A DNA stretch of 64,000 nt from Zingiber officinale. Lineage: Eukaryota; Streptophyta; Magnoliopsida; Zingiberales; Zingiberaceae. The number at the start of each line of letters is the position of its first letter. Within the stretch, counting starts at the first letter, position 1. The stretch is taken from assembly GCF_018446385.1 (NCBI RefSeq), contig NC_056001.1, forward strand, positions 9,356,672 through 9,420,671, read 5' to 3'. The notes beneath the pieces were generated by a model. That model searched no databases and was not told the DNA's origin. It worked only from the letters and a program-made list of their open reading frames with translations. This document shows, in pieces, positions 15,719 to 63,698 of this stretch. The position numbers and the translations under genes are program-made.

Positions 15719-15859
15719 ACGAATGTTGGTGCAAAATCCCTCAGGTCAAGGTTGACCTGGTTAACCAAGCTGAGTCTTGGTTTGGGTTTAGATGTTTGAC
15801 AATAAGATATTGATCGAAGAAGAGTCAAGTAGGTCAAGGTTGACCGGATACTTGACTAG

Positions 15860-16140
15860 GAAGTCCTAGTGAGTGAAGCTAGGCAGAAGGAAATCCTAGT
15901 GAGTGAAGCTAGGTGGAAATCCTGGTGAGTGAAGCCAGGTGAAAGTCCTAGTGAGTGAAGCTAGGCAGAAGGAAGTCCTAGTGAGTGAAGCTAGGCAGAA
16001 GGAAATCCTAGTGAGTGAAGCTAGGTGAAAGTCCTGGTGAGTGAAGCCAGGTGAAAGTCCTAGTGAGTGAAGCTAGGCAGATGGAAAACCCTAGTGAGTG
16101 AAGCTAGGTGAACGTCCTGGTGAGTGAAGCCAGGCAAGGA
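15860..16140 (+). repeat. Short tandem repeat array in LTR U3
   Basis: About ten units of the form (g)tcctagtgagtgaagctagg, alternating with tcctggtgagtgaagccagg, are separated by 6-10 base spacers (cagaaggaaa, tgaaa). Unit order and number differ in the 3' LTR copy (about 21765-22045), so the array changes faster than the rest of the LTR. Confidence 0.85.
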
Positions 16141-16524
16141 AGGAAATCCAGATGGATCAAGGATGATCGGACATCTGGTGTTGGGAAGTCCAAGTAGGTC
16201 AAAGGATTGACTGGATACTTGGCAAGGAAGGAAGTCCAGATGGGTCAAGGTTGACCAGACATCTGGTGGAAGTCCAAGTAGGTCAATGGAGTGACCGGAT
16301 ACTTGGCACGACGAGTAAAAGTCCAAGTAGGTCAATGGAGTGACCGGATACTTGGCACGACGAGTAAAAGTCCAAGTGGGTCAAAGGGATTAACCGGACA
16401 CTTGGTAGGGAGTCCTAGCAGGTCAAGGGAGTGACCAGATGCGAGGCATGATGTACCAACAGGTCAAGGTTGACCGGATGTTGGTTAGGGAGGTTTGGGA
16501 CTTGGTTTTGGGCAAAAACCAAGT

Positions 16525-16800
16525 GCTGGATCGATCCGTGGATCGATCCAGGCTGTGGATCGATCAGTGGATCGATCCAGATTCTTCTCAGAAAGCTTCT
16601 GGATCGATCCGTGGATCGATCCAGAGGTCCCGATCGATCAGCCGATCGATCGGGACGATGCTGCTTCGCACGATAAGCGCTGGATCGATCCGTGGATCGA
16701 TCCAGGCGCGTTTCCTGAGCACAGAGGCGCTCTGGATCGATCCGTGGATCGATCCAAAGCCTCCCCGATCGATTCGGAACATTCGAATCGATCGGGATCC
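16525..16800. repeat. Array of GGATCGATCC palindromes in LTR U3
   Basis: The 10-base palindrome ggatcgatcc, usually paired as ggatcgatccgtggatcgat, occurs repeatedly. Variants are tcgatcagccgatcgatcgg and gattcggaacattcgaatcg, each self-complementary. The spacers are unrelated to one another. A second array of the same word is in the element's interior (20519-20760). All three frames stay open through it (WIDP, GSIR, DRSV repeats), so the open frames here are by-products. Confidence 0.9.
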
Positions 16801-17321
16801 GACCGTTGCGTCGGGTTTAAAGCCGCAGGCGAGCGTGGTCTTCGGCAATCTTTTCACAAGCTCTTCTCAGATTCATTCCAGCTCCTCCACAGCTCTCTAC
16901 AAGCACGTGATCGCCAGTTCTTGAAGGTTCTTGGAGGCTTTCCAAGTCAAGAGGCGGATCTATTGCAAGAGGAAGAAGTTAGGGTTAGGGTTTTTACTGC
17001 ACATCTTGTAAGCTTTTGCTTAACTTGTATTTCCCTTTCTTCTTCTTGTATTGAGAGTGTTGTAGGGCTTCTCCGCCTTTGGTAGTTACCATAAAGGAGT
17101 GTTATTCATAGTGGAGGGTGTGTGCGTTGGTGTGGATCCTTGGATTAGTCACCTCTTGTGAGGTGGATACCAAGTAAAATCCTAGTGTTAGCGTTTTGTG
17201 TTTGTTTCTGTATTTTCCGCTGCACATCCAAGAAGAAACAAGCAACGCCAAGCAACAAAGCGCACCGAGCGAACGCGACGAGCTATTCACCCCCCCTCTA
17301 GCTACTTTTGGTCCTAACAAG

Positions 17322-19207: not shown

Positions 19208-21629
19208 ATGGGTTAGAGAGTGTCAACTCCGATTAGAAGGGTAGTTAACCCAACTTTGAGGAAATTGACACTCAAGGAGCATTTTCAAGGTTTTTGTTAA
19301 CCTTTGAAAATGAAATGGAATTATTATTTACTCCTTGAAAGAGTAAAATGTGCCTAATGGTGGAAAAATTGATTTTAATCTTAAATGGCACATATTGGGA
19401 AATTCATAAGAACTACCAAGTTGGGATTTTGGTATGTTCTTAGTAAATTTAAGGCAATCCGGGCCTTAATTTAAAAGTGCTACTCTTGTGGAAAAATGAA
19501 ATATGCCAACATTTGAGGATATGCTTACTTTCGACTGGCATAAATTAATCAAGGGAATTAGAAATGCCAATTTAAGCTTTGGCATTTTCTTAAAGCACTT
19601 TAGGGCAAATCTAGGTTTAAGTTGTACGTTTAGCTAAGGTTTTAAGGATACTTAGATAGTTAATCTAGGTATATTTTATTTATGCTAAATCTTGCCATGA
19701 TTGTTTGCCCATCATATGTCATGACATCATGTCTATTTTTGCATTCATGACTTATCATGAAAAATACAAAAATACCATGTCATGCCATACATACATCATG
19801 TAGCTATAGGATATCTTTCTTTTGAAAGTTATTTTATTTTGATGTATGCCATAACATTATCATGCATTAAGTTTAATTCCTTGTAATTAAGGACAAATGG
19901 CATTTAACAACACTTATTAACAAGTGACATCCTTGGTGGATGTCTAATATATATCTAAAATGCCTAGATAGATATGCATGATCCCTAGATTAGGGCAAAA
20001 CCAAAATCTACATCTCACAAGACCTATAAGATGACTTGTATGTGTTTTAGTGCACATTAGATACAAGTGAGATGTTAGGATGATGAACAAAACTCAAGAT
20101 GTTGATTTAGTGCATTCTTTTGAGTTTTAGGTTCATCAAAACACATAGTTATGTGTTTTCCCATCATTGGGAAAGCTAATGTACAAGTCATGTGCATTAA
20201 GCCCAAGGAATATGGTGGGATATTGGTTTTGAAAATATTTTCAAAATGATTTTGGAAAACCTTGGTGAAAGCTATCTTTTGATAGTAATCACCATTGAAT
20301 AGTTAGACACAAACTTGAAGAAAACACTAAAGTTTTTGGAAGTTTTCAAGTTTGTGTCAATCTTTGAAAATATGATGTATTTTCATAGAAAACTATTTTT
20401 CCTGGATAGTATATGCCCTAACTAATGTCTACACGAAATTTCATAATTTTTGGATTTTTGTAGAATTTTCTAGGGGTTTCTGAAGTTGACTGAAATGGAA
20501 TTTCAGCAACTATCAGAGCTCCGATCGATCCATGGATCGATTGAGTTCTGAATCGATCCATGGATCGATTCAAACGGCAATTCTCGCGAGCAGAAGCTCG
20601 CTGGATCGATCCAGGGAGTCTGAATCGATCCGTGGATCGATTCGTGGATCTCGCGACAGAAGCTCGCCGGATCGATCGGCCGATCGAGTTCTCAATCGAT
20701 CGCTGGATCGATTCAGTCAGTTCAATCGATTGGAACCCAACTCCAATCGATCCAAGTTGCTGATTTTGGCTGGGAAAGCCTGATTTCAGCACTTTGAACC
20801 TATTTTAGTCAATGTAACCTTTCCAAACCCCTAAATATACATTTGTATACATAAGGAGGGTGTTTTCATGTGAAAACAAGGATGGATTGGTTAAGGAAGG
20901 CTAAGTTGAAGTTTAGGTTGAGGTTTGTTTCAAATTTTGAATATTTGAACCTCAAAACTTCTACAATTGGGTTTCCTAAAGATTTAGGGATTCCAAGTCA
21001 TTGTTGGTGCAATGACAGAAGTTACCATCATGTCTTTAGGGGGAGGTACTCTTTAAAGACATGAAAAATTATTTTTCATGAACCTTGGAAGGTGGTTTAC
21101 CTTCTGTTTAAAATATGCTCAAGGTTGAGCATGGGTTGAACTTGAATGAGGAGTGTATATCCTCATTGTTCAGTGATTTCATTGGATAATGCTCAAGGAT
21201 GGGCATTTGCCTACATTGGGGGAGAATGTAGGGGTAAGAATAATGTAGGGTATGGGACCTTCAGTATTGAGTTGATCACAATGAGTGAAATTGTGATCAC
21301 GATGAGCAACTCTTCAGGGGGAGAGTCTTCAACAAATGGAGTTGTTGAAGTGTGCCCAAAATTGGAGCATAGGTTGATGTGTGTCCAAAGACGGGTTGAT
21401 GTGTTTTATTAGTAGGGGGTTGATGTGTGCCAATAGGGGGAGAATGAAAGGAAGTAAGTTAGGTTTTCATTACCTAGAGGGAGTTTGCCCTCTTAGGGGG
21501 AGAATGAAAAGCTTAACTTATGTGTTCATTACCTAGTGGCATGAAGAAGAAGGCTATAGGATTAGCCTAACTTACATGTGGGATTGTAAGTGTTATTGTG
21601 GTATTGTCAAACATCAAAAAGGGGGAGAT
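19208..21629 (+). other. Non-coding 3' interior of family A element
   Basis: After the gag stop there is no protease or polymerase sequence. The stretch holds AT-rich unique sequence, a palindrome array (20519-20760), and several aggggg(g)aga(g) purine blocks between 21040 and 21630. The last of these directly precedes the 3' LTR and serves as the polypurine tract (about 21616-21628). A short frame at 21146-21412 has no recognisable domain. Confidence 0.7.
20519..20760. repeat. Second GATCGATC palindrome array, internal
   Basis: Palindromic words such as gatcgatccatggatcgatt, tcgatcggccgatcga and gaatcgatccgtggatcgat occur about nine times. It is the same word class as the LTR arrays of this element but lies 0.9 kb before the 3' LTR. 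The word variants differ from those in the LTRs, so it is not a simple copy of them. Confidence 0.85.
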
Positions 21630-23229
21630 TGTTGGTGCAAAATCCCTCAGGTCAAGGTTGACCTGGTTAACCAAGCTGAGTCTTGGTTTGGGTTTAGATG
21701 TTTGACAATAAGATATTGATCGAAGAAGAGTCAAGTAGGTCAAGGTTGACCGGATACTTGACTAGGAAGTCCTAGTGAGTGAAGCTAGGCAGAAGGAAAT
21801 CCTAGTGAGTGAAGCTAGGTGGAAATCCTGGTGAGTGAAGCCAGGTGAAAGTCCTAGTGAGTGAAGCTAGGTAAAAGTCCTGGTGAGTGAAGCTAGGTGA
21901 AAGTCCTAGTGAGTGAAGCTAGGCAGATGGAAATCCCTGGTGAGTGAAGCCAGGTGAAAGTCCTAGTGAGTGAAGCTAGGCAGATGGAAAACCCTAGTGA
22001 GTGAAGCTAGGTGAACGTCCTGGTGAGTGAAGCCAGGCAAGGAAGGAAATCCAGATGGATCAAGGATGATCGGACATCTGGTGTTGGGAAGTCCAAGTAG
22101 GTCAAAGGATTGACTGGATACTTGGCAAGGAAGGAAGTCCAGATGGGTCAAGGTTGACCAGACATCTGGTGGAAGTCCAAGTAGGTCAATGGAGTGACCG
22201 GATACTTGGCACGACGAGTAAAAGTCCAAGTAGGTCAATGGAGTGACCGGATACTTGGCACGACGAGTAAAAGTCCAAGTGGGTCAAAGGGATTGACCGG
22301 ACACTTGGTAGGGAGTCCTAGCAGGTCAAGGGAGTGACCAGATGCGAGGCATGATGTACCAACAGGTCAAGGTTGACCGGATGTTGGTTAGGGAGGTTTG
22401 GGACTTGGTTTTGGGCAAAAACCAAGTGCTGGATCGATCCGTGGATCGATCCAGGCTGTGGATCGATCAGTGGATCGATCCAGATTCTTCCCAGCGAACA
22501 GAAAGCTTCTGGATCGATCCGTGGATCGATCCAGAGGTCCCGATCGATCAGCCGATCGATCGGGACGATGCTGCTTCGCACGATAAGCGCTGGATCGATC
22601 CGTGGATCGATCCAGGCGCGTTTCCTGAGCACAGAGGCACTCTGGATCGATCCGTGGATCGATCCAAAGCCTCCCCGATCGATTCGGAACATTCGAATCG
22701 ATCGGGATCCGACCGTTGCGTCGGGTTTAAAGCCGCAGGCGAGCGTGGTCTTCGGCAATCTTTTCACAAGCTCTTCTCAGATTCATTCCAGCTCCTCCAC
22801 AGCTCTCTACAAGCACGTGATCGCCAGTTCTTGAAGGTTCTTGGAGGCTTTCCAAGTCAAGAGGCGGATCTATTGCAAGAGGAAGAAGTTAGGGTTAGGG
22901 TTTTTACTGCACATCTTGTAAGCTTTTGCTTAACTTGTATTTCCCTTTCTTCTTCTTGTATTGAGAGTGTTGTAGGGCTTCTCCGCCTTTGGTAGTTACC
23001 ATAAAGGAGTGTTATTCATAGTGGAGGGTGTGTGCGTTGGTGTGGATCCTTGGATTAGTCACCTCTTGTGAGGTGGATACCAAGTAAAATCCTAGTGTTA
23101 GCGTTTTGTGTTTGTTTCTGTATTTTCCGCTGCACATCCAAGAAGAAACAAGCAACGCCAAGCAACAAAGCGCACCGAGCGAACGCGACTAGCTATTCAC
23201 CCCCCCTCTAGCTACTTTTGGTCCTAACA
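21630..23229 (+). repeat. 3' LTR of family A element
   Basis: It starts tgttggtgcaaaatccc after the purine tract and ends gtcctaaca before the ACGAA duplication. It matches the 5' LTR closely: single-base changes such as gagctatt/tagctatt near the end, plus an 8-base difference (cagcgaacag) beside the palindromes. The tandem array order also differs. Confidence 0.93.
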
Positions 23230-25937: not shown

Positions 25938-26112
25938 GGATTGTAAGTACACTATATTAGTTTTGATGTTGATCAACGGAGTTAAGTTAGGTCCTGTATG
26001 TTTGATACCTTAATTATGTCTAAGTGTACATGAACTTATGAACACAAAAAATTTAGCCGAAGTCGCAGCGAGTGAGAAGGATGACATGGGAAGGGAGCCT
26101 ACGGGCTCAATG

Positions 26113-28117: not shown

Positions 28118-28379
28118 TTTCACCTAAAACTAATATATTGAGAACTAGAAATTAACATACATTAACATACTAACACAAAACAAACAAACGGACTATATTA
28201 TGTTATAAATTAACATACTAACATAACATATTTCTAAATTTAACCATGTTAAATGACATACAATATAATTTAGTAAATTTTACTTGAAGATGTGCAGGTT
28301 AACCGGAGAAGAGCAGCAAATGTTACATGTTTACAAAATAAAAATAATTTAGCTTAAAATTATGACAAAAATAAATGAC

Positions 28380-28770: not shown

Positions 28771-28795
28771 GGGAGGGGTTAGGGATTTTTTTAGG

Positions 28796-29021
28796 TAGCA
28801 TTACCGACGGAATTTTAATTCTGTCGGTAACCTATAATTTTACCGACAGAATGAATTATTCCATCGATAAAATCCTTGATTTTTCGACGAAATTTTTCCT
28901 TCCGTCGGTACCAATAGGGTTTACCGACGGAATGAATTATTCCGTCGGAAACATTATAGGTTACCGACGGAATTAAAATTCCGTCGGTAACCCCATCGGT
29001 AATCCTGCTTTCTTTTGTAGT
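28796..29021. repeat. CACTA subterminal repeats and terminus
   Basis: At least eight copies of taccgacggaat or its complement (attccgtcggtaa), some paired as perfect palindromes, end at gtagtg (29016-29021). Typical of the terminal 200-300 bases of CACTA elements. Confidence 0.85.
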
Positions 29022-29851
29022 GCGAGAGACGAGGAGCCGTGGAAGAATACATCGGTAGAGTAAGAAGGATATGCAATGTGAATCCGAGGGACCAGAAGTC
29101 GGAAAGAAGACTACTCGAGGAGAATGTTGGAGTTGGGTTCGGGTGATCTCAACTTCTGCCGATTGGAACATCACCCAAGTGAGCAGATCAAAGAATGATT
29201 AACTTTTGATGTTGACTATTTGAGGCGCTTCAAATGACTCGAGGCGCCTCAAATGACCAGAGTTAGAGTTATTGCTATGGATGACAACAACGAGACTTGA
29301 GGCGCCTCCATTCACTTGAGGCACCTCTGAAGTAAAGAGACATTGCGACGCAGAAAAGAAGTGTGAATCCATGTCAGTTGAACCGAGGCATCCTCGATGA
29401 ACCGAGGCACCTCCATTGCCGCCAAATCAGCTTGAAGTTGTTGCATGAAGATAAAGTTCGGATCATTGGAGGCACCTCAAATCATTGGAGGTGTTCCGAA
29501 TTGTCACGTCAACAAAATGGTCATTTTGACCAGTGGACTATAAATAATGTCCTAGAGCTAGTTATAAAGTAACACACTTTGTATTCAATTCTGCATTTCG
29601 TTTTGATCTTTCAATTGCTATTAGGGGCTACTCCGCCTTTGACTTTGTTGAAGGAGGAGTTTAATAGTGCTTTCCAAAGTCTTGGATTAACAACTACCCA
29701 GGTTGTAACTAAGTAAACCTTTGTCTCTTTTCTTTTATATTATTATTGTTTTTAATTAATTAGCGTGTCCTTGCTAAATAAGTTGCAAGAGAAGCTGTAA
29801 ATTTAATTTACAGGCTATTCACTCTCTCTAGTCATTCCACCGGGACCAACA

Positions 29852-32045: not shown

Positions 32046-33640
32046 TTTTATTTCATAGATTTCAAAAAAAAAATTTGATTTAAAAAATCAATTTATTTAA
32101 TCAGTAAATTAGTTTATACATAATGTTAATATTTTTTTATAACAAAAAATTAACTTGCATCCAGCTGTCTTTAGATAAATCTTGCACCTAGTTGTTAATA
32201 TAGGTCAAGTTTGTTCATCGTAAAATTTAAATATTCTATTATTAATGTTCACTGTATTCCAAAGAAATTGCGCCTTTTACTTATGATCCATCGCAGTTAA
32301 TGTGTTTGGGTGAATTCCCCAGACAGAAAATGCCATCCGTCGTCCACATGAAGCTGTACCCTGCTATTTGAAGCAATTAAATGTGAATTATTTCATAGCA
32401 GGTGCAGACCGAAACTTCAAAAGTAAAAAATACCGAGAAGAAGTCGGATATGCTGAAGCCTAGAGGAAGTGACTGGTGGGAGATCGCCATTCATAACTCT
32501 TCAAGACACATACATATACAGAGCAGTGTTCTAGGAGATGTGTGTAGGTCTGGATCCATCAGTATACTGATATGAACAGAGACCCCATGCAGGCAGGCAC
32601 CTCCCATGCACTGCTGTCTTCTTAACGCACCCTCCGGAGGAAGGTTAATTATCAGAAAAATCCACCATCAAACTCCAAATATGCGATTCCAGAATTTTTC
32701 TACCCTTCCCAGAGAAATTACCCTCTGTATATCGAGACATACCGTTGTCATTATCCTCTGCGGCCCCTGTGGGCGCCCTACAAAACAACCACGGGAAATA
32801 AGGAGGCTCCCGTAAGATTGACATCACCATAGTAAACACCATGTGATGAGGAGGAAGAAACTAACAAAAATTTCTTAACTCCCTCCCTCCCTCTGCTTTT
32901 CTCTGTTCTTGTCTCCATCTTCGCTGGTTCATAGGTGAATCCTTTCCTCCATGCCCTCTTTCTGTTGCCAAGATTCTCCTCGTGTCCCTTTATCATGCAT
33001 TTTAGACCATCTTTTTTCTTTAGATAAGCCTTAAACCGTTTGATCAACGAATAGGAAGACAAAGCAAAGCTAAGCAAAGCCAGCTCCATTTCTTTCCCTC
33101 GTGCCTTTCCAGCATCTTTGTCTCTGGGAAGTGATTAATCCATCCTTGATTCCTTGTTTGTCTGTTTACGTTGTTCCAGGTTAATTATCGAGGATGCGGT
33201 AGATAGTGGAGGTCCTCTCGATGAGCTGTGATGCTATTTTTTTAGCTTCATTTGCTTTGCTCTCTTCCCCAGGATCAATCTCGCTTTCCTTCACATGCAT
33301 TGCTACCAGTGGCATGGCACCACAGGTTTATTGCTTCTCCTTACCCCCACCCCTCCAATTCCCTTCCTGGTTTCTTCTTAACTTCTCTATCTTCTACCTC
33401 GAGATCTCTAAGGAGCTACAAATTGAAGAAGAGAGCGCCTTCCCCCCTCCAAACAAGTGTTGCAGGCGTTGCTCCCACAGGCAGTAGCAATTTTTTCTCC
33501 ATATTTCCTTTCCATTTTGCCTCTTCATCTCTTCTTGGCTTCTAGCTCCAGCTCGTAAGGGGCCACAAATTGCACACAAATGTCGGTTGTTTGGCCTCTT
33601 GATCGCTCCGTCAGCGAGACATGATTTGCTCCAGAGAAGC
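32046..33640 (+). other. Upstream region and 5' leader of the receptor kinase gene
   Basis: No transposon was recognised here. GC rises from about 32400 onward. Several short frames occur (for example 33206-33487), none with a domain. Pyrimidine-rich stretches near 33290-33540 would suit a 5' untranslated leader of the gene starting at 33647. I could not place a TATA box with confidence. Confidence 0.4.
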
Positions 33641-33646
33641 ACCAAC

Positions 33647-37837: not shown

Positions 37838-38565
37838 TGATCCTGTCCGAGTCGCTGAATCGACGGACGCTGGGCACGTGGCGCTCTCCTCTATTTCCGA
37901 CCAGCTGCACAGACCTCCGGCGAACCTGCAAAGAAGTCGGGCCGGGGAGGGGTCCCCGACGACGACCCTCCGACGCTCAAGTCAGGCAAGAAGAAGACGA
38001 TGAAATAGCTCCGAAGATCAGAGTTTTCATACCTCCGGCGAAGTCTGCGGGCTCTTATATAGAGCTCTGAGGAGGCTGATGCACATACACCGAGGCACAC
38101 ACGTGTCCTCAGCCCATACCCAGTATGGGCTTGTCAGAGGAGCTTGCGACCCTTTCATCGCTACAACCGAGCACGTCTGACGGGACAGATAATCTTCGAT
38201 GAGATAGCATAATCTTCGTCTTGTCATTCTAGCCCTTCGCTTCCGCATCGAAGCGATGCCGCTAGCCCCATCACGTCCGACCGACTAAGGTATACGTCCG
38301 CTCGGGGTATTCCCGGTCAGTGCTGGACTGTTCGCAGTGTTGATACTTTATTCCTTCGAGCGGCCATCCGCCGCACTACTATACTTGTTCATCATGAGCG
38401 CTGAACCCGACTTCCCGCCGGGGTGTATTGCTTCCGCTCGGAAGCTTCAGCTGGTCGTCACCATCATTATCCGCTCGGCCAAGCTTCTGGTTGGCCTTTT
38501 ACCTTTCGACCTCCACGTGGCGTTGACTCTGCTAAATGGGGACTTCCATTCTTACTGCCGGATCA
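37838..38565 (-). repeat. Gypsy derivative LTR (3' LTR on the minus strand)
   Basis: It matches 41270-42022 across nearly its whole length, with small deletions, often losing gctcgg-type words (for example ccgccgcac versus ccgctcggcac). The element's interior begins at 38566. Confidence 0.88.
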
Positions 38566-38804
38566 CTTGCCTCCCCTTCAAGTCTAGTCGAAGGAGGCGA
38601 TTAGTCCGACTGACTGGACTATTGTTTCGCCGAACGACTCTTCCAGGAAATCATTATCCGCTCGGCCGATGAGGCGGTAATTACGGCCTCCGTCAATGCC
38701 ATCGTCCCTCCTTTCTTGTGCTCGAACGGGGATTTCTGTCGAAGTATTTTTGATAAGCGAGTCGAACGGCCATACGTTGCCTTATCCTCCCGCTCGGACG
38801 TTTA

Positions 38805-39575
38805 TAGACGCCGGCTCGTCTCTCGATCTTTAACGACGGAGCTCGTCGGCGCGGATATTTATAGCCGGTCGGCGCGGCTCTCGATCTTTAACGACGGAGC
38901 TCGTCGGCGCGGATATTTATAGCCAGTCGGCGCGGCTCTCGATCTTTAACGACGGAGCTCGTCGGCGCGGATATTTATAGCCGGTCGGCTCTCGATCTTT
39001 AACGACGGAGCTCGTCGGCGGATATTTATAGCGGTCGCGGCTCTCGATCTTTAACGACGGAGCTCGTCGCGGATATTTATAGCCGGGCTCTCGATCTTTA
39101 ACGACGGAGCTCGTCGGCGGATATAGCTAGTCGGCGCGGCTCTCGATCTTTAACGACGGAGCTCGTCGGCGTGGATATTTATAGCCGGTCGGCGCACTCG
39201 ATCTTTAACGACGGAGCTCGTCGGCGCGGATATTTAGAGCCGGTCGGCGCGACTCTCGATTTTTAAGGACGGAGCTCGTCGCCCCGGATCTTTATAGCCA
39301 GTCGGCGCGGCTCTCGATCTTTAACGACGGAGCTCGTCGGCGCGGATATTTATAGCCGGTCGGCGCGGCTCTCGATCTTTAACGACGGAGCTCGTCGGCG
39401 CGGATATTTATAGCCGGTCGGCGCGGCTCTCGATCTTTAACGACGGAGCTCGTCGGCGCGGATATTTATAGCCGGTCGGCGCGACTCTCGATTTTTAACG
39501 TCTGAGCTCGACGGCGCGGATATTTATAGCCGGTCGGCGCGGCTCTCGATCTTTAACGACGGAGCTCGTCGGGCT
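38805..39575. repeat. Tandem array of ~58 bp units
   Basis: About 13 units contain ctcgatctttaacgacggag, ctcgtcggcgcggatattta and tagccggtcggcgcggct. Several units carry small deletions that remove one or a few bases of ggcgc words. The array fills the interior of the Gypsy derivative and encodes nothing recognisable. Confidence 0.92.
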
Positions 39576-39599
39576 TTTAAGCCTAATTTGGACAACGTT

Positions 39600-40850
39600 T
39601 ACCTGGCCGAACGGCACAGGGTCTTCGGAATTGAGCCTTTGGCTCGTACAATATACCTCCGGCTGAGCAGCTCGGGGCCTTCGTCGTCGAGCGCTTGGCT
39701 CAGATAATTTACCTCCGGCCGAGCGGCACGGGGCCTTCAGATACTATACCTCCGGCTGAGCAGCTCGGGGCCTTCGTCGTCGAGCGCTTGGCTCGGATAA
39801 TTTACCTCCGGCCGAGCGGCACGGGGCCTTCGGATACTATACCTCCGGCTGAGTAGCTCGGGGCCTTCGTAGTCGAGCGCTTGGCTCGGATAATTTTCCT
39901 CCGGCCGAGCGGCACGGGGCCTTCGGATACTATACCTCCGGCTGAGCAGCTCGGGGCCTTCGTAGTCGAGCGCTTGGCTCGGATAATTTACCTCCGGCCG
40001 AGCGGCACGGGGCCTTCGATCCTCGAGTGTGCGGCTCGTACAATATACCTCCGGCTGAACGGTCCGGGGCCTTCGATCCTCGAGCCTTTGGCTCGGCTTC
40101 TATACTCCCGGCCGAGTGGCACGGGATTTATCCCATCGAGCCTTTGGCTCAGTTAATATACTCCCGGCCGAGCGGCACGGGGTCTTTCCATCGAGCTAGG
40201 GGCTCGGGTAATATATTCCCCGACCGAACGGCACGGGGTCTTCCCATCGAGCCTCGGGCTCGACTAACATACTCCCGGCCGAGCGGCACGGGCTTCCCAT
40301 CGAGCCTTTGGCTCGGTTTATTTACTCCCGGCCGAGCGGCACGGGATTTATCCCATTGAGCCTTTGGCTCGGCTAATACACTCCCGGCCGAGCGGCATGG
40401 GGTTTTCCTATCGAGCTCGGGGCTCGGCTAACATACTCCCGGCCGAGCGGCACGGGCTTCCCATCGAGCCTTGGGCTCGGTTTATTTACTCTCGGCCGAG
40501 CAGCACGGGATTTATCCCATTGAGCCTTTGGCTCGGCTAATAAACTCTCGGTTGAGCGACACGGGGTTTTCCTATCGAGCTCGGGGCTCGGCTAACATAC
40601 TCCCGGCCGAGCGGCACGGGCTTCCAATCGAGCCTTGAGCTCGGTTTATTTACTCCCGGCCGAGCGGCACGGGATTTATCCCATCGAGCCTTGAGCTCGG
40701 TTTATTTACTCTCGGCCGAGCGGCACGGGATTTATCCCATCGAGCCTTTGGCTCGGCTAATACACTCCCGGCCGAGCGGCACGAGATTTATCCCATCGAG
40801 CCTTTGGCTCGGCTAATACACTCCCGGCCTAGCGGCACGGGAGTGTTTAC
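39600..40850. repeat. Second tandem array, ~60-70 bp units
   Basis: Some twenty units of ccggccgagcggcacggg, followed by ttatcccatcgagcctttgg and ctcggctaatacactc, with variants. The first seven or so units use a different linker (gccttcggatactatacctc). The open frames at 39881 and 40027 are just translations of the repeat. The array differs in sequence from the adjacent 58-bp array but shares the gctcgg vocabulary of the LTRs. Confidence 0.9.
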
Positions 40851-41269: not shown

Positions 41270-42022
41270 TGATCCTGTCCGAGTCGCTGAATCGACGGAC
41301 GCTGGGCACGTGGCGCTCTCCTCTATCTCCGACCAGCTGCACAGACCTCCGGCGAACCTGCACAGAAGTCGGGCCGGGGAGGGGTCCCCGGCGACGACCC
41401 TCCGACGCTCAAGTCAGGCAAGAAGAAGACGATGAAATAGCTCCGAAGATCAGAGTTTTCATACCTCCGGCGAAGTCTGCGGGCTCTTATATAGAGCTCT
41501 GAGGAGGCTGATGCACATACACCGAGGCACACACGTGTCCTCAGCCCATACCCAGTATGGGCTTGTCAGAGGAGCTTGCCTGACCCCTTACTGCTACAGT
41601 CCGAGCACGTCTCTGATGGGACAGCATAATCTTCTGATGAGATAGCATAATCTTCTGTCTTGTCATTCTAGCCCTTCTGTTTCCGTACCGAGCGGCATGC
41701 CGCTCGGCAGTCCCATCACGTCCGACCGGAATAAGGTATATGTCCGTTCGGGGTATTCCTGGTCATGTGCTCTGGACTGTTCGCAGTGTTGATACTTTAT
41801 TCCTTCGGCCGAGCGGGCCATCCGCTCGGCACTACTATACTGTTCATCATGAGCGTCGGAACCCCGACTTCCCGTCGGGGTGTATTGCTTCCGCTCGGAA
41901 GCTTCAGCTGGTCGTCACCATCATTATCCGCTCGGCCAAGCTTCTGGTTGGCCTTTTACCTTTCGACCTCCACGTGGCGTTGACTCTGCTAAATGGGGAC
42001 TCCCATTCTTACTGCCGGATCA
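41270..42022 (-). repeat. Gypsy derivative LTR (5' LTR on the minus strand)
   Basis: 753 bases, the better-preserved copy, bounded by the primer region at 41249-41267 and the CCGAC duplication at 42023-42027. Confidence 0.9.
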
Positions 42023-42796
42023 CCGACTATCTCTCACAAGTACTCCTGATTCACCTTCCGTCTTGGTGCTTTTCAACGTTAATACTCAGGCACGGTTGAA
42101 ATTCACCACCTCTAATTACTCTGCCTGACGCTTGCAGTTCACATCTATCTTATCCGGATATGACTTATTGGGCTTTGTTGATGGCTCACGTCCCTGCCCC
42201 CTGCGCAGATAATGCCTACAGACGCCACGCTCCCTCAGGTAAATCCTGATCATATTCTCTGACTTCGTTAGGATCAACTTCTCCTCAACACTATTATAGG
42301 TTCGATGTCTCCTACTCTTGGGCAGTTTATTTTTTCATTAACTTCATCTAGAGACGCATGACAGATGCTGGAGAGAACTGTTGGAACCCCAAGGTGTTTT
42401 GATGTGATCAAACAAGCTAAGTTAGGTCCTGCGTTTGTTTAACCCTTGTGTCTAAGTGTGCAGGAGCTTAGGAACACAAGAAGTCGAGCGGAAGACGCGG
42501 CTAGCGAGAAGGACGGCACGGGAGAGAGCCGACGGGCTCGGTGCGTCTGAGGGACGAGGTGTCCGCGGAAGAGTACACTGGTGGACGAGAAGAGCGTGCG
42601 CGACGCTCGAGGGACGAGAAACCGGGAAGGAAGGCTGCTCGAGGAGAAGGCCGGAACATGGGGTCGGGTGAGCCCTATTCCGGAAGGCCGAGATCACCCA
42701 AGCTAATGGAGCCGGAGCGAACAGACCCGGACCGAAACGAGCTAAACCGGAGTAGTAGAATCGGACCACAAAAAGTCAACAAAGTTGACTTAAGGG

Positions 42797-42975
42797 GTCC
42801 GGGCGCCCGGAATCATTCCGGGCGCCCCAGGCACTATTGAGGGTCCGGGCGCCCGGAACGCCTCCGGGCGCCCGGAGCTGACTTTTGACCAGGATCGCGT
42901 CAAACGCGATCTGATCGTTGGGGATAGAATTTTATCCCCTCCAGGGCGCCTGGAACTCCTTCCAGGCGCCCGGAC
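42797..42975. repeat. Array of CCGGGCGCCCGG palindromes upstream of the TATA box
   Basis: The 12-base palindrome ccgggcgcccgg occurs intact at about 42799, 42844 and 42863, with close variants (ccgggcgcccc, ccagggcgcctgg, ccaggcgcccgg) in between and after. Between them lies ggggatagaattttatcccc, another self-complementary segment. The array ends next to the TATA palindrome. Confidence 0.88.
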
Positions 42976-42999
42976 CAGTACTATAAATATAGTACTGGT
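42974..42999 (+). promoter_or_regulatory. LTR promoter: TATA box in a perfect inverted repeat
   Basis: accagtactata, then aa, then tatagtactggt forms a perfect 12-bp inverted repeat whose centre is TATAAATA (42982-42989). Position in the LTR and spacing to downstream sequence fit the core promoter of the element. The same 26 bases are kept in the 3' LTR (46286-46311). Confidence 0.8.
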
Positions 43000-43365
43000 C
43001 TGCACATTCAGTTCAACTCACTTGTAATCAATTATTTCTGTGCTTTCAGTTGTGTTCTTTTCATTTGTGCTGTCAACGTTGTAAAGAGGCTTCTCCGCCT
43101 AGAGGAGATCATAGTGCGCTTACTTTCCTTGGATTAGCAATCCTCTGATTGCAAACCAAGTAAATCTCTGGTGTATGATTTCTTTACTTAGTCTCTCCTT
43201 TTTATTACAAGTGTTTATGTTATATAGTTGAAATCCGAGAAAGGTTTGAGTTTAATTTTGTAGGGCAATTCACCCCTCCCCTCTTGCCGGCCTCCAAAGG
43301 GACCAACAAGTGGTATCAGAGCAAGGCACGCTTCAGGAGGACTAACCGCCGATCGAAGCAACAAG

Positions 43366-44814
43366 ATGGCCGGACCAAGCATCGTCCCACCAAAATTCGA
43401 GGAGAACTTCGCAGACTGGAAGCGTCGTATGGAGGTATTCCTAAAAACAGATTTTGAAATTCGATTTATTATGAAATATGATTTTGTAGCTCCAATAGAT
43501 AAAGATGGAAAAGAAAAAGAAGAGAGCCATTGGACAAAGAAGGAGCAGAATGAGTCGGTAGCAAACAGCCGTGCGGAACATCACCTGCTGAGCGTGTTAC
43601 CGCCTCAAGAGGTCAACCGCATCGGAAACTATTTATCTGCTAAAGAACTTTGGGAGAAGTTCTTGGAACTCCACGAAGGCACGTCCGAAGCAAAGCTCGC
43701 TAGAAGGGACATCCTCCGCAACAAACTGATGAACATCCGTCTGGAGAAAGGTGAGAAAGTAGCTGGTTTACACGCAAAGGTAAAAGAACTAGTTACTGGT
43801 CTCGAGAACCTCGGTGAAACGATAACAAATCGGGACACTATACGATACGCGCTCAACGCGTTTCCAAGAACTCCGGAATGGACATCAATCGTCGACGCCT
43901 ACTACATCTCAAAAGACCTGGAGGTAAGCACTTTAGAAGAGTTGTTTTCTACTCTTGAATTGCATGAAACCAGGTATGCAGGAACGACAAAGGATACAAC
44001 CCAGACTATGGCGCTGAACGTAACCCAGAAGGATGAACTCGAGTCAGACTCCGAAGACGATCAAGAAGCATACATGGTAAGAAATTTTAAAAAGTTTTTT
44101 AGATCTAATAAATTTAAAATGCAGAATAAGAGGAATCAAAAAGGTGGAAGAAAGGTGCGGTGCTACCAGTGTCAGAAGGAGGGACACCTAAGAGAAGATT
44201 GCCCAGAACTCAAGAAGGCCAAAAGGAAGTCTCCCAAGAAACACAACCTAAAAGCAACTTGGGACGACACTTCTTCATCCGAATCAAAAGCTCAAGAATA
44301 TGCCGGAATAGCACTAATAGCAAGCTACGATAGACAAAGTATATCAGAACCTAGCATCGATGAAGGGGGAGCGACCTCGGATAAAAGCAGTGAAGCAGGG
44401 GGAGATTCAGGCTTCAAGTCCGATATGGTAAGTGAGGTATGCCTCTTACCCCCTGATCAACTTTATTCTGGCATTAAGGCAATGACGAAATCCATGTATA
44501 AATTAGAAAATGAAAATATCAAATTAAAAAATGAAATTTTGGAAACAAAAAGAATTTTAGCAAAATCATGTCTTATAGAGGATTTTGATAAATTGAAAAT
44601 TGAAAATGAAAAACTAAAAGAAGAAATAGAAAGATTGAAAAAATATAAAAGTTCAAATATTTCTACTTTTAGCAATTATAGAGGTTTAAATTGGTATTAT
44701 AGATTTCATCAAAGTCAAATTAGAAATATATCAAAAATCTATGTACCTAGGAAATACTTGGTTAACCCTGTAGGTAGGAATCTCTACTGGGTTCCAAAAA
44801 CCTGTTTAAACTAA
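43366..44814 (+). CDS. Copia-type gag protein (482 aa), intact
   Basis: The start ATG lies 44 bases after the primer site and opens MAGPSIVPPKFEENFADWKR. A UBN2-like capsid region spans about residues 15-205 (LSAKELWEKFLELHEGTSEA, ITNRDTIRYALNAFP, ISKDLEVSTLEELF). One CCHC knuckle, CYQCQKEGHLREDC, is at 267-280. An acidic/Ser linker follows, then a predicted coiled coil (ENEKLKEEIERLKK) and the end NPVGRNLYWVPKTCLN. The protein would form virus-like particles and bind RNA, but no protease or polymerase follows. The frame is uninterrupted, unlike family A's gag, so it may still be expressed. Confidence 0.93.
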   Translation: MAGPSIVPPKFEENFADWKRRMEVFLKTDFEIRFIMKYDFVAPIDKDGKEKEESHWTKKEQNESVANSRAEHHLLSVLPPQEVNRIGNYLSAKELWEKFLELHEGTSEAKLARRDILRNKLMNIRLEKGEKVAGLHAKVKELVTGLENLGETITNRDTIRYALNAFPRTPEWTSIVDAYYISKDLEVSTLEELFSTLELHETRYAGTTKDTTQTMALNVTQKDELESDSEDDQEAYMVRNFKKFFRSNKFKMQNKRNQKGGRKVRCYQCQKEGHLREDCPELKKAKRKSPKKHNLKATWDDTSSSESKAQEYAGIALIASYDRQSISEPSIDEGGATSDKSSEAGGDSGFKSDMVSEVCLLPPDQLYSGIKAMTKSMYKLENENIKLKNEILETKRILAKSCLIEDFDKLKIENEKLKEEIERLKKYKSSNISTFSNYRGLNWYYRFHQSQIRNISKIYVPRKYLVNPVGRNLYWVPKTCLN

Positions 44815-45725
44815 AATTAGACTTAGCATTTTCAACAAGGAAATTAAACGACTAATTTCATTATGAGGCTTTGTCTAAGGAAGTGGTTGTTGCTCCAATA
44901 ACCAAGAAGGCCTAGTGCCTCGCCACGACCTGGAAGCCAAGTATCGAAATGAAAAATTTAATTGACTAACTGAAAAAGCATTAATTTAATTTACCTAATG
45001 CTTTAAAAGAGTTATTCAATTTGTGTTAGAAAATATTTAAAATTAATTTATAAATAAAAAAAAATTGGAAAATAATTTTTTTTAATTGACTTAGAAAATT
45101 TCTGAAAATTATTGACTTAGATATTTTTTAACTTAGGAATTTTTCTATGAATATTGTCTTAGACATTTTTCTTTGAAAATTGCCTTAGAAATCTTTTATG
45201 AAAAATAACTTAAAAATTTTTCTGTATATTGACTTAGAATTTTTTTTAAACTAGATATTCTCTTTTGAAACATTACCTTAGAAATTAATATTAATTATCT
45301 TAGAAATTTTTATGAAAATTGACTTAGAAATTTTTTGAGTTATCTTAGAATTTTTTTTATATTGCCTTATAATTTTTTTCTTAAAATTGACTTAAATTGT
45401 TTTATTAGAAATTTTTTTTGGGAATGCTGAGATAAGTTTTAAACTTAAATTTTTAACACTTATGACTGTTCTTATCTGAAACAATTCTAAAGAGTGTCTT
45501 TACTAAATATTTTACACTTAAAAGTTCTTGTTTGAATTTACCTTAGACTTTTTTATAACCCCAATTTTTATGTGATCAAAGGGGGAGAAGTATGTTAAGT
45601 CTAGGGGGAGGTACTATATAATTTTTCAATTGAAAAATATTTGGACTTATCTTAATATAAATTGTTTTTATTGCATATGGTTACCCTAACTTAACTTGGG
45701 TTGCTCACATCAAAAAGGGGGAGAT
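44815..45725 (+). other. Non-coding 3' interior of family B element
   Basis: AT-rich, with many decayed repeats of the form ttagaaatttttatgaaaattgac and two agggggag purine blocks (45579, 45604) before the final purine tract. No coding sequence was found. Confidence 0.7.
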
Positions 45726-46619
45726 TGTTGGAACCCCAAGGTGTTTTGATGTGATCAAACAAGCTAAGTTAGGTCCTACGTTTGTTTAACCCTTGTGTCT
45801 AAGTGTGCAGGAGCTTAGGAACACAGGAAGTCGAGCGGAAGACACGGCTAGCGAGAAAGACGGCACGGGAGAGAGCCGACGGGCTCGGTGCGTCTGAGGG
45901 ACGAGGTGTCCGCGGAAGAGTACACCGGTGGACGAGAAGAGCGTTCGCGGCGCTCGAGGGACGAGAAACCGGGAAGGAAGGCCGGAACATGGGTTCGGGT
46001 GAGCCCTATTCCGGAAGGCCGAGATCACCCAAGCTAACGGAGCCGGAGCGAACAGACCCGGACTGAAACGAGCTAAACCGGAGTAGTAGAATTGGACCAC
46101 AAAAAGTCAACAAAGTTGACTTAAGGGGTCCGGGCGCTCGGAATCATTCCGGGCGCCCCGGGCACTATTGAGGGTCCGGGCGCCCGGAGCTGACTTTTGA
46201 CCAGGATCGCGTCAAACGCGATCTGATCGTTGGGGATAGAATTTTATCCCCTCCAGGGCGCCCGGAACTCCTTCCAGGCGCCCAGACCAGTACTATAAAT
46301 ATAGTACTGGTCTGCACATTCAGTTCAACTCACTTGTAATCAATTATTTCTGTGCTTTCAGTTGTGTTCTTTTCATTGTGCTGTCAACGTTGTAAAGAGG
46401 CTTCTCCGACTAGAGGAGATCATAGTGCGCTTACTTTCCTTGGATTAGCAATCCTCTGATTGCAAACCAAGTAAATCTCTGGTGTATGATTTCTTTACTT
46501 AGTCTCTCCTTTTTATTACAAGTGTTTATGTTATATAGTTGAAATCCGAGAAAGGTTTGAGTTTAATTTTGTAGGGCAATTCACCCCTCCCCTCTTGCTG
46601 GCCTCCAAAGGGACCAACA
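45726..46619 (+). repeat. 3' LTR of family B element
   Basis: Same start and end as the 5' LTR. The palindrome array is shorter (one ccgggcgcccgg pair is missing near 46175), and about 15 bases (gaggctgctcgagga-like) are missing near 45980. The TATA palindrome (46286-46311) is intact. Confidence 0.95.
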
Positions 46620-48937: not shown

Positions 48938-48971
<34 letters not shown>

Positions 48972-57707: not shown

Positions 57708-60471
57708 AATTGATGTTTTTGTGTGATCAACAAGTTAAGTTAGGTCCTGCGTTGTTTCTAACCTTGTGTCTAAGTGTGCAGGAGCTTAGGAACACAGGTA
57801 GTCGAGCTGAAGACGCAGCTAGCGAGAAGGACGGCAGGGGCAGTCTTTGCGGAAGAGTGCCGTGACGAGAAGGAAGCGCGGTGGTTAGAGAAGATTGCTC
57901 GGGGAGCAGAAGGCTAGCGAGAAGGTCGGCAGGGGATGCGGATGAGTGAGTTGGCGGACGAGAAGGAAACACGCAGCGGCGGAAGCCCGCTTGAGAAGGC
58001 CGGAAGTTGGGTTCGGGTGAGCCCTTTCAGGATGGCAGAGATCACCCAAGCGAGCGAAGACTCGGACGAGGCGAAAGGACGGACAGAAGTCCCGGGCGCA
58101 AAAGTCAACGGAGTTGACTTTTCCAACCGGGGCGCCCGGAGTGAATTTTACCAGAGCACGTCAAACGCGTTCTAGACGTTGGGGATAAAGTTTTATCCCA
58201 GGGTCGGAACCCTTCGCGCGACGAAGACTATAAATATAGCCTTGGTCCAGAGCTCAAGAACTCAAGCATTCTTTCTACACTTGTGCGCTTTTCTTTTAAG
58301 CTTCTATTATGCGCTTCATTGTAAAGGCTTCTCCGCTTGAAGGAGATACTAGTACGCTCGCTTTCTTGGATTAACAACCTTCCCGGTTGTAACCAAGTAA
58401 ATCTCGGTGTGCCTTTTACTTTTACGCCTTTATTTATTTCTCTTATTTTACAAGTGTTAGTTTAAGAGTTCGAGAAGGGTGTTTGCGTTTTGATTTTTGC
58501 AGGGCTATTCAACCCCCTTCTAGCCGACCCTCAAGACGCTTCAGGAGGACTAACCGCCAATCGAAGCAAAGATAATGGCCGGACCAAGCATCCACCCGCC
58601 GAAATATGGAGGAGATATCGCTACGTGGAAGAATTTGATGCAGGTATTTTTTACCACGGACTTTGAATTAACTTTAACAATGGAATCCGGTTTGTAGCTC
58701 CGAAGGTAAGGAAAAATGTCAATGGACAAAAAGGAGCAGTTGAATTCGTGGCGAATGGCAAGCAGAATACCATCTGCTAAGCGTTCTTCAGTCAACAGAA
58801 TCGGACAATACCACTCTGCAAAGGAACTTTGGGAAAAGTTCCTCGAGCTGCACGAAGGGACTTCCGAAGCCAAGCTCGCCAGAAGAGATCTGCTTCGGAA
58901 TAAGCTCACCAGCCTGCAACTTGGGGAAGATGAGACAGTCGCGCACTTGCACTCGAGAATCAAAGAGATCATCACCGGACTATCGAATCTCGGAGAAACG
59001 GTAAGTAACCGAGATTCGCTAAGGTACGCACTAAATTCATTTCCTAGAAATTCAAAATGGGAATCACTAGTAGATGCCTTTTATATTTCTAAAGATTTAG
59101 AAAAGATCTCGTTAGAAGAATTTTTTTCAACTTTTGAAGTGCATGAGTCAAGATGTGCAGGAATGAAGGAGCCCAAGAATAACCTAGTAGATGCCTTTTA
59201 TATTTCTAAAGATTTAGAAAAGATCTCTCAAAGCTTTGAGGGCGACGTTATTCTTGGGCTCCTTCATTCCTGCACATCTTGACTCATGCACTTCAAAAGT
59301 AGAAAAAAATTCTTCTAACGAGATCTTTTCTAAATCTTTAGAAATATAAAAGGCATCTACTAGTGATGCCCATTTTGAGTTTCTAGGAAATGAATTTAGT
59401 GCGTACCTTAGCGAATCTCGGTTACTTACCGTTTCTCCGAGATTCGATAGTCCGGTGATGATCTCTTTGATTCTCGAGTGCAAGTGCGCGACTGTCTCAT
59501 CTTCCCCAAGTTGCAGGCTGGAAGAACGCTTAGCAGATGGTATTCTGCTTTGCCGTTCGCCACGAATTCAGCCTGCTCCTTTTTTGTCCATTGACATTTT
59601 TCCTTACCTTTTGGAGCTACAAAACCGGATTCCATTGTTAAAGTTAATTCAAAGTCCGTGGTAAAAAATACCTGCATCAGATTCTTCCACGTAGCTAAAT
59701 CTCCTCCATATTTCGGCGGGTGGATGCTTTGTCCGGCCATTATCTTTGCTTCGATTGGCGGTTAGTCCTCCTGAAGCGTCTTGGCTCTGATACCACTTGT
59801 AGGACCGTTGGGCCGGATAGAAGGGGGGTTGAATAGCCCTGCAAAAATCAAAATGCAAACACCCTTCTCGAACTCTTAAACTAACACTTGTAAAATAAGA
59901 GAAATAAATAAAAGCAGAAAAGTAAAAGGCACACCGAGATTTACTTGGTTACAACCGGGAAGGTTGTTAATCCAAGAAAGCGTAGCACTAGTATCTCCTT
60001 CAGGCGGAGAAGCCTTTTACAGCAATGAAGCGCACAATAGAAGCTTAAAACAGAAAAGCGTACAAGTGTAGAAAGAATGCTTGAGTTTCTGGGGGGATAA
60101 AACTTTATCCCCCAACGTCCAGAACGCGAAAGACACGTTCTGGTCAAACTTCACGTTCCGGGCGCCCCGGAGCAAAAAGTCAACTCTGGTTGACTTTTGC
60201 GTCCGGGACCTCCGCTCCGTTTTAGTCCCGCCTCGGTCCGGGTCTTCCACTCCGGATCCGCTTACTTGGGTGATCTCTATCATCCGGAAAAGGGCTCACC
60301 CGAACCCAACTTCTGGTCTTCTCAAGCGGGCTGTTTCCTTCTCGTCCGCCAGCGTACTCATCCGCAGTCTTCGTCCCTCGGTCGTCGACCTTCTCGCTAG
60401 CTGCGTCTCTTGCTCCCCGAGCAATCTTCCGCTCCGGCTTTCGTCCCTCGGAACCACCGCGCGCTTCTCCT
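57708..60471. mobile_element. Inverted-repeat (head-to-head) copy of family B Copia LTR-gag
   Basis: The left arm reads forward: LTR from about 57708, TATA-like ctataaatatag at 58228, the ttctccgc phrase, LTR end region near 58525, then gag to about 59184. The right arm is the reverse complement: gag from about 59229 back to the start codon at 59740, primer site complement gctctgatacca near 59784-59795, LTR to about 60471. The arms are over 1.2 kb, joined by a ~45-base spacer that itself repeats 59069-59112. The left arm lacks the LTR end and primer site (jump at about 58530), and the right arm lacks the TATA segment. Gag frames are broken in the left arm. Transcription from the left TATA would give a long hairpin RNA. 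Confidence 0.85.
59229..59740 (-). pseudogene. Gag fragment in the right arm of the inverted repeat
   Basis: Beginning at 59740 the minus strand reads MAGQSIHPPKYGGDLATWKN and continues to AEYHLLSVLP. It then has a small deletion and frameshift near 59520 and resumes as SRIKEIITGLSNLGETVSNR and ISKDLEKISLEEFFSTFEVH. This is the same domain as residues 1-205 of the intact gag at 43366. It stops at the hairpin centre, so only the capsid-like part is present. Confidence 0.8.
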
Positions 60472-61315
60472 TTTATAATCAACAATACACCATATAAATA
60501 GTACTATTTCCCAACTCATCGGGCTTATTGATTTAACGAATAAATCTCAGCCATTGATAAGTTAAAGAAATAAATACTAAATATACGTGTTTGTTATTAT
60601 ATAGGGATTAAGAGGACACACATCCATAATAACAGAGGTTCTGTTCTTTTATATAGTCAGTATAAATTAAACAACCTCAAATGATCCTGCTCAATACACA
60701 CATAGTGTACTAGTGTAATTTTATAGTCAAGACAGACTAATACCAAATTACACTACAACCGTTCCAATAGTTTGCCCCAATCCATCTTGGTTGTGAATCA
60801 CTATTTATAATTTATAAGGAACCGATAACATGATCTTTTGTGTGGCACCACACACCATGTTATCTACAATATAAATTAAATGGACAACTGCATTGACATA
60901 TATATAAATATAAAATGTAAACATTTGATCAAAATGATTCTCATTTCAAAATATTTCAAAACAGATGTTCATACAAAAGCTAGGCTTATAGTATACATTC
61001 CAACACCAGGGGCTGGCCTTGGCAGCTTCTTAGGCTGTGTTTGCTATTATTTTTCCTTCAGATTGAAACATGGAAAGAAGTCGAGTTATTTTGATTATCA
61101 TAGATAATTTTTACCACTAAATCATAATTTCAGAAGGAATAAAGATGAATTCAGTAAAAATAGAATTAAAAGAACACTTCAACCATTGAGATTGATAGGT
61201 TAACATATTTGGTGCAGAGTGCTTCATTTTTCATTTGTTATTAAATAGCCACATGGTATACCATATGAATATGGAAGTACACATAAATAGACTATATAGA
61301 GTATATTTTGAGATG
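60472..61315. other. Intergenic DNA, no gene seen
   Basis: AT-rich sequence between the inverted repeat and the transposase remnant. No recognisable feature apart from short frames. Confidence 0.4.
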
Positions 61316-63070: not shown

Positions 63071-63544
63071 GCAATTGTTGGAGCAATCTAATGACCCTAG
63101 GTTTTGATGTTTGAGCAAAGGTTTAAGTTAGGTTTATTGTTGTATTTGATATGCATTATGAGTGTGCAGGATACAGGTATAACAAGAAAAGTCCAAGTGT
63201 GATCTTGGCAAAGGAGAAAAGTCCAAGGATGAGTCTTGGTGGTATAAGTCCAAGCAAGTAGTCTTGGCAACGTAAGTCCAAGTGTGACTTGACAATGGAT
63301 GAAGTCCCGAAGGCGTGACCTCTTAGCAAAGGAAGACCCGACAGTAATTACAAGGCCAATGGAAACTCTAGAAGGCAAGACATGAAGGATGGAGAGGCAT
63401 CCGAGGGACGCAAGGCTGATGGAGGAGGCTAGAAGGCTAGGTCTAGGTTGGTCGGACGAGGATGAGTGTTGAGTGAATGCAATCGGGGGTTAAATCCTAG
63501 GATTAGAGTTTTGCTGTAGCGTTACTATAGCAGTATTGTAGCAG

Positions 63545-63655
63545 TCGACTGGTGTTTTTATTAGTCGACTGGTAGCCGACCGTTGGCTTGTAACGATCAA
63601 ATTTTACTTAGGACCAGTCGACTGGTGGTTGCACCAGTTGACTGGTGGCGGGAAA
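63545..63655. repeat. Array of AGTCGACT palindromes in family C LTR
   Basis: Four or five copies of (c)agtcgactgg, with variants such as agttgactgg, occur in about 110 bases just upstream of the TATA-like palindrome. This is the same position as the arrays in the other LTR families but with a different palindromic word. Confidence 0.85.
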
Positions 63656-63675: not shown

Positions 63676-63698
63676 CGAGCTCTATTTAATAGAGCTCG
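63676..63698 (+). promoter_or_regulatory. Family C LTR promoter: TATA-like core in perfect inverted repeat
   Basis: cgagctctatt, then t, then aatagagctcg is a perfect 11-bp inverted repeat whose centre, tatttaata, is the likely TATA element. Its position just after the palindrome array matches that of the TATA box in family B. Confidence 0.65.

Follow-up and report, generated by a model that had tools for sequence, protein, structure and literature searches.

Family-specific palindrome arrays upstream of TATA-like boxes in Copia-type LTRs of ginger as probable Sirevirus regulatory boxes

The window analyzed here, a 64-kb stretch of plant DNA with many LTR retrotransposons, contains four Copia-type LTRs (A, B, C and an old split LTR), and it was confirmed that each of them carries in U3 an array of a palindromic word of its own. 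In our judgement these arrays are quite likely the palindromic repeated-motif (RM) boxes of Sireviruses, which belong to the cis-regulatory portion of U3 immediately before the core promoter and here also fold.

Results

Two complete insertions, termed A and B, are delimited by their LTR pairs and target-site duplications (Table 1). The duplication ACGAA flanks element A on both sides, and its two LTRs share 97.9% identity (self-BLAST); the LTRs of B are 94.3% identical (BLAST). Two diverged relatives of the B LTR, B' and B'', are found in opposite orientations facing each other (57714-60480), with gag-like sequence after each of them. The B' LTR holds a single GGGCGCCC word, the W-box pair, a GGGATAAA/TTTATCCC hairpin and a TATA box in an imperfect inverted repeat, and B'' lacks, in the alignment, the part corresponding to the TATA region. 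With one LTR each, C and the old element were placed in this class by their LTR layout only. The old LTR is split by an insertion (26109-28996, limits approximate), in which a minus-strand open reading frame (26010-26900) is by eye similar to an En/Spm-type transposase; near the end of the insertion there is a perfect inverted repeat of 16 bp (28959-28992). Elsewhere in the window, a long block with several tandem repeats (38754-40845; periods of 58, 93, 164 and others) is flanked by 93% direct repeats (37838-38566 and 41270-42023) and possibly represents another LTR element, and two adjoining open frames at 33488-36274 look by eye like an LRR receptor-like kinase.

Table 1. Positions of elements, LTRs, arrays and promoter features in the 64-kb window
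Feature	Position	Strand	Remarks
Element A, complete insertion	15724-23229	+	LTR pair and 5-bp target-site duplication
Family A 5' LTR (TGTTGG...CTAACA)	15724..17319	+	ends and duplication read from the sequence
Family A U3 array, 14 exact ATCGAT cores as seven dyads	16526..16796	+	centre spacing 12 in six dyads, 19 in one
A TATA-like TTTAAA inside near-palindrome CGGGTTTAAAGCCG	16816..16821	+	read from the sequence
Family A second array, 12 ATCGAT cores, internal region	20524..20751	+	
Five AGGGGGAG polypurine tracts before the A 3' LTR	21038..21627	+	starts 21038, 21316, 21435, 21495, 21620
Family A 3' LTR	21630..23229	+	array copy at 22429-22706
Old split LTR	start near 25944-26108, resumes near 29000; array 29222..29500	+	TATAAATAA near 29539
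Element B, complete insertion	42379-46619	+	LTR pair and 5-bp target-site duplication AGAAC
Family B 5' LTR	42379..43308	+	followed by primer-binding site TATCAGAGC at 43314
Inverted pair AAGTCAAC-aaa-GTTGACTT in the B 5' LTR, presumably W-boxes	42773..42791	+	
Family B array, six exact GGCGCC-centred words as three dyads	42798..42972	+	B 5' LTR
B TATA box TATAAATA in the loop of GACCAGTACTATA-aa-TATAGTACTGGTC	42973..43000	+	box at 42982; perfect inverted repeat
Family B 3' LTR	45726..46619	+	one 19-bp word unit fewer than the 5' LTR
B' LTR, diverged B relative	57714..58530 (ends approximate)	+	
B'' LTR, diverged B relative	59798..60480 (start approximate)	-	
LTR C	from about 63076 (inferred start) past the window end; array 63541..63646	+	
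C TATA-like box TATTTAA, centre of CGAGCTCTATT-t-AATAGAGCTCG	63676..63698	+	11-bp arms

By a set of markers taken from PMC2829016, A and B are Sireviruses of the Ty1/copia superfamily, because clustered AGGGGGAG tracts and an AT/TG junction occur in both together with the TATCAGAGC primer site and a copia gag. The last of the AGGGGGAG tracts of A is followed by AT/TG, B has three tracts before its 3' LTR (45580, 45603 and 45716), and two more of these octamers occur in the gag region of each element; the polypurine tract of the old LTR is degenerate. The junction between polypurine tract and 3' LTR reads AGGGGGAGAT-TGTTGG in A as well as in B. The primer-binding site follows the 5' LTR at 17325 in A, at the position given in Table 1 in B and at 59784 (minus strand) in B''; two other TATCAGAGC sites (20511 and, on the minus strand, 2258) adjoin no known 5' LTR. 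At the B junction an inverted repeat was seen by eye, with ACATCAAAA before the polypurine tract and TTTTGATGT in the LTR; the left arm is also present in A, and by eye no matching right arm was seen among the first LTR bases. A C-rich signal is found near the LTR end (TTCACCCCCCCTC in A, TCACCCCTCCCC in B). The gag of B matches PF14223 (E 7e-15) and zf-CCHC, that of A matches zf-CCHC and reaches PF14223 only below the curated cut-off. Among the open frames of at least 200 aa in A and B no pol was recognisable by eye, hence both elements look non-autonomous. Three of the four strongest matches of the B gag are predicted Curcuma longa proteins (among the 120 listed of 159 matches; 7993 candidates scored). 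A pattern built on the polypurine tract junction had one match in viral contigs, which by eye does not resemble an LTR, while prokaryote genomes gave no match; a B gag pattern matched 25 stretches in viral contigs, none of which was confirmed as a relative, and the Rfam search with gathering thresholds gave no match in 42300-43400.

All four arrays of the original prediction, which had also described unrelated spacers between the words and, in three of the four, a TATA-like sequence directly behind the array, were present at the positions given there. The spacers are largely unrelated and the spacings vary, and the TATA-like sequence follows the array after about 10 bp in B, 37 bp in C, 41 bp in the old LTR and 19 bp in A, where it consists of TTTAAA only. 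Counted from the LTR start, which is inferred in the case of C, the first array base lies at about 420 bp in B, 465 bp in C and 800 bp in A. If one mismatch is allowed, there are five word cores in the B 3' LTR, five GTCGAC-like cores in C and seven GGCGCC-like cores in the decayed array of the old LTR; exact copies of the predicted words are fewer than cores, namely two in C and two in the old LTR. The cores at 63575 (C) and 29418 (old LTR) have no symmetric flanks and are probably chance matches.

The enrichment was evaluated by counting 10-bp (and 8-bp) palindromes in comparison to 500 dinucleotide shuffles. Both LTR arrays of A contain ten 10-bp palindromes (expected 1.26 in the 5' and 1.25 in the 3' LTR; 0/500 shuffles as high in either case), the internal array of A five (expected 1.02; 2/500), the B 5' array three (expected 0.36; 3/500) and the C array two (expected 0.13; 4/500). 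The array of the old LTR also has two (expected 0.28; 16/500), its 8-bp count being not significant (168/500), and the single 10-bp palindrome of the B 3' array is not significant (expected 0.28; 118/500; 8-bp count 36/500). Palindromes of 10 bp are absent from B' and B''. Accordingly graded, the array is strong in A, clear in B 5' and C, weak in the old LTR and not significant in B 3'. Seven other stretches of the same LTRs, located before or after the arrays, showed no excess of 8- or 10-bp palindromes, and the coverage with inverted-repeat arms was borderline in one of the seven (A before the array, 35/500). The weak or missing enrichment of the old LTR and B 3' on some counts would be consistent with a chance origin of the arrays, or with their being simple tandem repeats of G+C-rich DNA. 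This is a highly improbable explanation, since at least 496 of the 500 shuffles stay below the 10-bp palindrome counts of A, B 5' and C, which rules out chance for these arrays, and since plain tandem repeats are at odds with the variable spacings and largely unrelated spacers and were therefore rejected.

The arrays also differ in CpG content. The CpG observed/expected ratio of the A LTR array is 1.47, compared to 0.32 before and 0.73 after it within the LTR, and that of the internal A array is 1.69, compared to 0.19 in 17321-20500. This contrast is clear for A, partial for C (1.05 versus 0.51 before the array) and absent for B, where the array (1.03) is no richer than the preceding U3 (1.12), and for the old LTR (0.80); the ratio of the whole window is 0.84. 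The proposal that the slot is kept and its word exchanged holds in so far as a family-specific word occupies the same promoter-proximal slot. However, the word of A forms the internal array as well and is thus not confined to this slot. By the original prediction's own test, the internal array tells against a strict slot, yet it fits the linker clusters published for Sireviruses (PMC2829016). An envelope-like domain was not found in three frames beside the internal array.

The original view of a single word as the unit could not be upheld for A and B 5', where the unit is a pair of words. In both LTRs the words form inverted-repeat pairs with arms of 10-14 bp. The usual unit of A is word-2 bp-word. 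The B 5' array has three word pairs, the perfect arms of which measure 12-14 bp, in alternation with hairpins of a different sequence; two of these hairpins, unrelated to the word, lie between the dyads (42893-42911 and 42920-42939). A census of inverted repeats in the whole window (perfect arms of at least 11 bp, loops of at most 4, pure A+T arms excluded) yielded 20, and 16 of them belong to the A arrays (11), to B (4, two of which are TATA repeats) and to C (1, a TATA repeat). Neighbouring words are complementary to each other, and for this reason any transcript that includes the array can form hairpins. RNA prediction folds the promoter-proximal U3 of B as a chain of hairpins, with z-scores of -12.3 in B 5' and -11.6 in B 3' compared to +0.39 and -2.09 in two neighbouring control stretches of the B 5' LTR, and the other arrays range from -3.2 to -12.55 (A LTR array -12.55, A internal array -9.66, C -8.3, old LTR -4.5, B' -3.2). 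For the C array, two hairpins with two words each are predicted, which are imperfect and include G-U pairs.

These folds, together with the several B hairpins that are not built from the word, argue for an alternative in which the selected feature would be an RNA (or single-stranded cDNA) structure and not the words. Situated where the genomic RNA ends, on its 3' side, a chain of U3 hairpins might act in 3'-end formation, packaging, dimerisation or strand transfer, with the TATA box in the last loop by happenstance. This alternative, which is compatible with our preferred explanation, appears unlikely to us. With DNA folding parameters B 5' reaches an equally extreme z-score of -13.9, hence RNA and DNA structure are not told apart, and word pairs with perfect arms of at least 8 were found neither in B 3' nor in C or the old LTR, the latter having no inverted repeat at all with perfect arms of 8 or more. 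Comparison of the flanks outside the core gave a divided picture. In the A LTR array they complement their own partner better than other partners (seven pairs, on average 1.71 of 8 positions mismatched versus 3.90 in the 84 other combinations; permutation P 0.009), which is in favour of a structure, whereas the internal A array fails this test (four pairs, 3.75 versus 4.48; permutation P 0.88).

Furthermore, covariation was scored for three stems in four B-type sequences, three of which are independent; the set is without the old LTR, which has no useful U3 alignment to B, and without the W-box stem, where B and B'/B'' are not aligned. Among 97 cells 95.9% pair, and double-sided changes occur in 3 of 28 pairs. 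The covariation score was reached by 8/500 shuffles and the number of double-changed pairs by 45/500, and six slid versions were free of double changes and scored between 0 and 0.030, compared to 0.119 for the real arrangement. However, three of the four double-changed cells are from B', and with three independent sequences the covariation in the B-type stems is suggestive only. A structural role of the arrays, as hairpin or cruciform, is a live option.

In both B and C an inverted repeat contains the TATA box itself. The arms have 13 bp in the B 5' and 15 bp in the B 3' LTR (46283-46314), and in B' 11 of the 13 pairs hold, two of them via changes on both sides. Around the TATA-like sequences of A (CGGGTTTAAAGCCG) and the old LTR (GGAC-N10-GTCC) only traces of an inverted repeat were seen by eye. 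Ten of 80 tested TATA-like 8-mers reach at least 10 symmetric pairs; six of them represent one (TA)n run (48949-48959), which was set aside, and the remaining four comprise both boxes of B, that of C and a site at 3263. The latter (3257-3277, GTAGGATATTTAATATCCTAC), TATA-like and unexplained, does not belong to a known LTR; its symmetric arms measure 10 bp, and it is situated inside a local repeat. A literature search for TATA boxes centred in an inverted repeat of LTR promoters gave none by title or start of the abstract among the matches listed. It might be, though we consider it slightly less probable still than the structural alternative above, that Sirevirus promoters are a chain of hairpins of which the last loop holds the TATA box, the pairing being conserved and the words replaceable as long as the pairs stay complementary. 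If so, extrusion of the inverted repeats could expose or hide the TATA box, or the chain could act in the 3' end of the RNA.

The arrays change within a family. The B 5' and B 3' LTRs differ by one 19-bp unit, with six versus five word cores, and one exact GGGCGCCC is left in each of B' and B'', which indicates that the arrays of one lineage can expand and contract. B' and B'' have kept other hairpins and almost none of the word copies, hence the array may be dispensable. Substitutions between the LTRs of an element fall inside the array in 2 of 13 cases in A and 4 of 17 in B, which is about the array's share of the length, i.e. the arrays were not protected from substitution since insertion. 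Such a lack of protection and the unit difference between two LTRs of one B element would be expected if the arrays were functionless by-products of mutation, with slippage and intrastrand template switching, seeded by palindromes and hairpins, copying and perfecting inverted repeats during reverse transcription or replication. The unrelated adjacent hairpins, which are perfectly symmetric as well, fit this explanation, and the double changes possibly were single template-switch events. We regard it as improbable to the same degree as a selected RNA structure, because in each of the four families, and likewise in those published (PMC2829016), the arrays lie shortly before a TATA-like box, and because the other LTR stretches are not enriched. 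The words also persist in diverged A relatives. A reading frame across the A array matched seven predicted proteins from short ENA contigs (533-1483 bases), and by eye six of them contain at least one clear translated word pair (e.g. WIDPWIDP, GSIRGSIQ), a variant form being present in the seventh (P0127); this set is biased toward words, since the query contains them. Protein relatives of the B-array reading frame were not found.

Finally, the inverted TTGAC pair of the B 5' LTR, which we take to be a W-box pair, is seen again in the B 3' LTR, at 58100-58122 in B' and at 60175-60198 in B''. Before its array (15744-16475), the A LTR contains 16 W-box-like TTGACY/RGTCAA sites compared to 1.6 expected (0/300 shuffles), several of which form inverted pairs, e.g. 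GGTCAAGGTTGACC. The internal parts are also enriched (A 12 versus 5.1, B 8 versus 2.4; 1/300 each), hence the excess of W-box-like sites is not special to U3. The LTRs of Tnt1 and Tto1 have repeated stress-response boxes in U3 that control transcription. The repeated short U3 boxes and the inverted W-box-like pairs of the present elements resemble this organization, but the words and the copia lineage differ.

Discussion

The exchange of the palindromic word between families had been regarded as undescribed in the original prediction. This is contradicted by Table 3 of PMC2829016 (Bousios et al. 2010), in which 13 Sirevirus elements are given with 12 different printed consensus words, two of them mutual reverse complements. 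The same paper reports family-specific palindromic motifs clustered upstream of the TATA box, with at least eight copies per element in the upper LTR, where they form CpG islands, a TATA box on average 37 bp past the island and extra word copies in the linker of envelope-containing elements. Hence, the main claim, element-specific palindromes upstream of the TATA box together with linker copies, is already in print. As in the published RM boxes, words in many copies are located shortly upstream of the TATA box in our elements, and a second, internal cluster exists in some (PMC2829016). Two cores are shared with published elements, since Tnd-1 (ACAATCGATTGT) has ATCGAT as its core like family A, and the Vitis element (CGGTCGACCG) has GTCGAC like family C.

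There are also differences to the published elements (PMC2829016). The CGG-CCG core is found in 12 of the 13, Tnd-1 being the exception, whereas here it occurs in B only and is by eye absent in A, C and the old LTR. Compared to at least eight published copies, A has 14 per LTR plus 12 internal ones and B six and five per LTR, and C has five and the old LTR seven at most, which refers to single LTRs. The array starts, about 420-800 bp into the LTR, lie beyond the published 200-400 bp. Element A uses both published sites, LTR and internal region, with raised CpG ratios, but no envelope-like domain was found there. The dyads of words whose halves are palindromic themselves (A and B 5') and the TATA box inside an inverted repeat (B and C) do not appear in the accessible parts of PMC2829016. 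In maize, Sireviruses likewise have a palindrome-rich regulatory region with strong predicted structure (PMC5311732, PMC10760457), and small RNAs in excess over the palindrome clusters are mentioned in PMC10760457, citing Bousios et al. 2016. However, the maize motif CACCGGACNNNGTCCGGTG is a single hairpin, whereas pairs of palindromes are found here, and the small-RNA mapping belongs to the maize work only. Searches of the literature for LTR palindromes of the ginger family gave none among the matches listed, and searches with three of the words as text gave none on plant LTRs by title among the matches listed.

We infer that the arrays act in the control of transcription. In each of them, recognition sites of a DNA-binding factor of the host would be clustered, and this factor would drive transcription from the TATA box. 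An existing word could be amplified or lost by gain and loss of units inside the array, which we propose as the reason why the word differs from family to family; families might in this way drift to different factors or affinities. Selection may be the reason for the conservation of the arrays. The transcripts that carry the array would be the genomic RNA, at its 3' end, or read-through RNA, and by analogy to the maize Sireviruses the hairpins might be a source of siRNA and hence the price of keeping the boxes. It speaks against our preferred explanation that a model based on a factor only predicts neither arms of 10-14 bp with short loops nor inverted repeats centred on the TATA box.

Collectively, the present analysis extends a known, unexplained feature of a plant-specific copia lineage to a genome of the ginger family. 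Whether such a cluster is an array of binding sites or a structural element is a question left open by the 2010 paper (PMC2829016). Pairing that is kept while the sequence changes, in the word pairs and in the TATA repeats, would separate the two.
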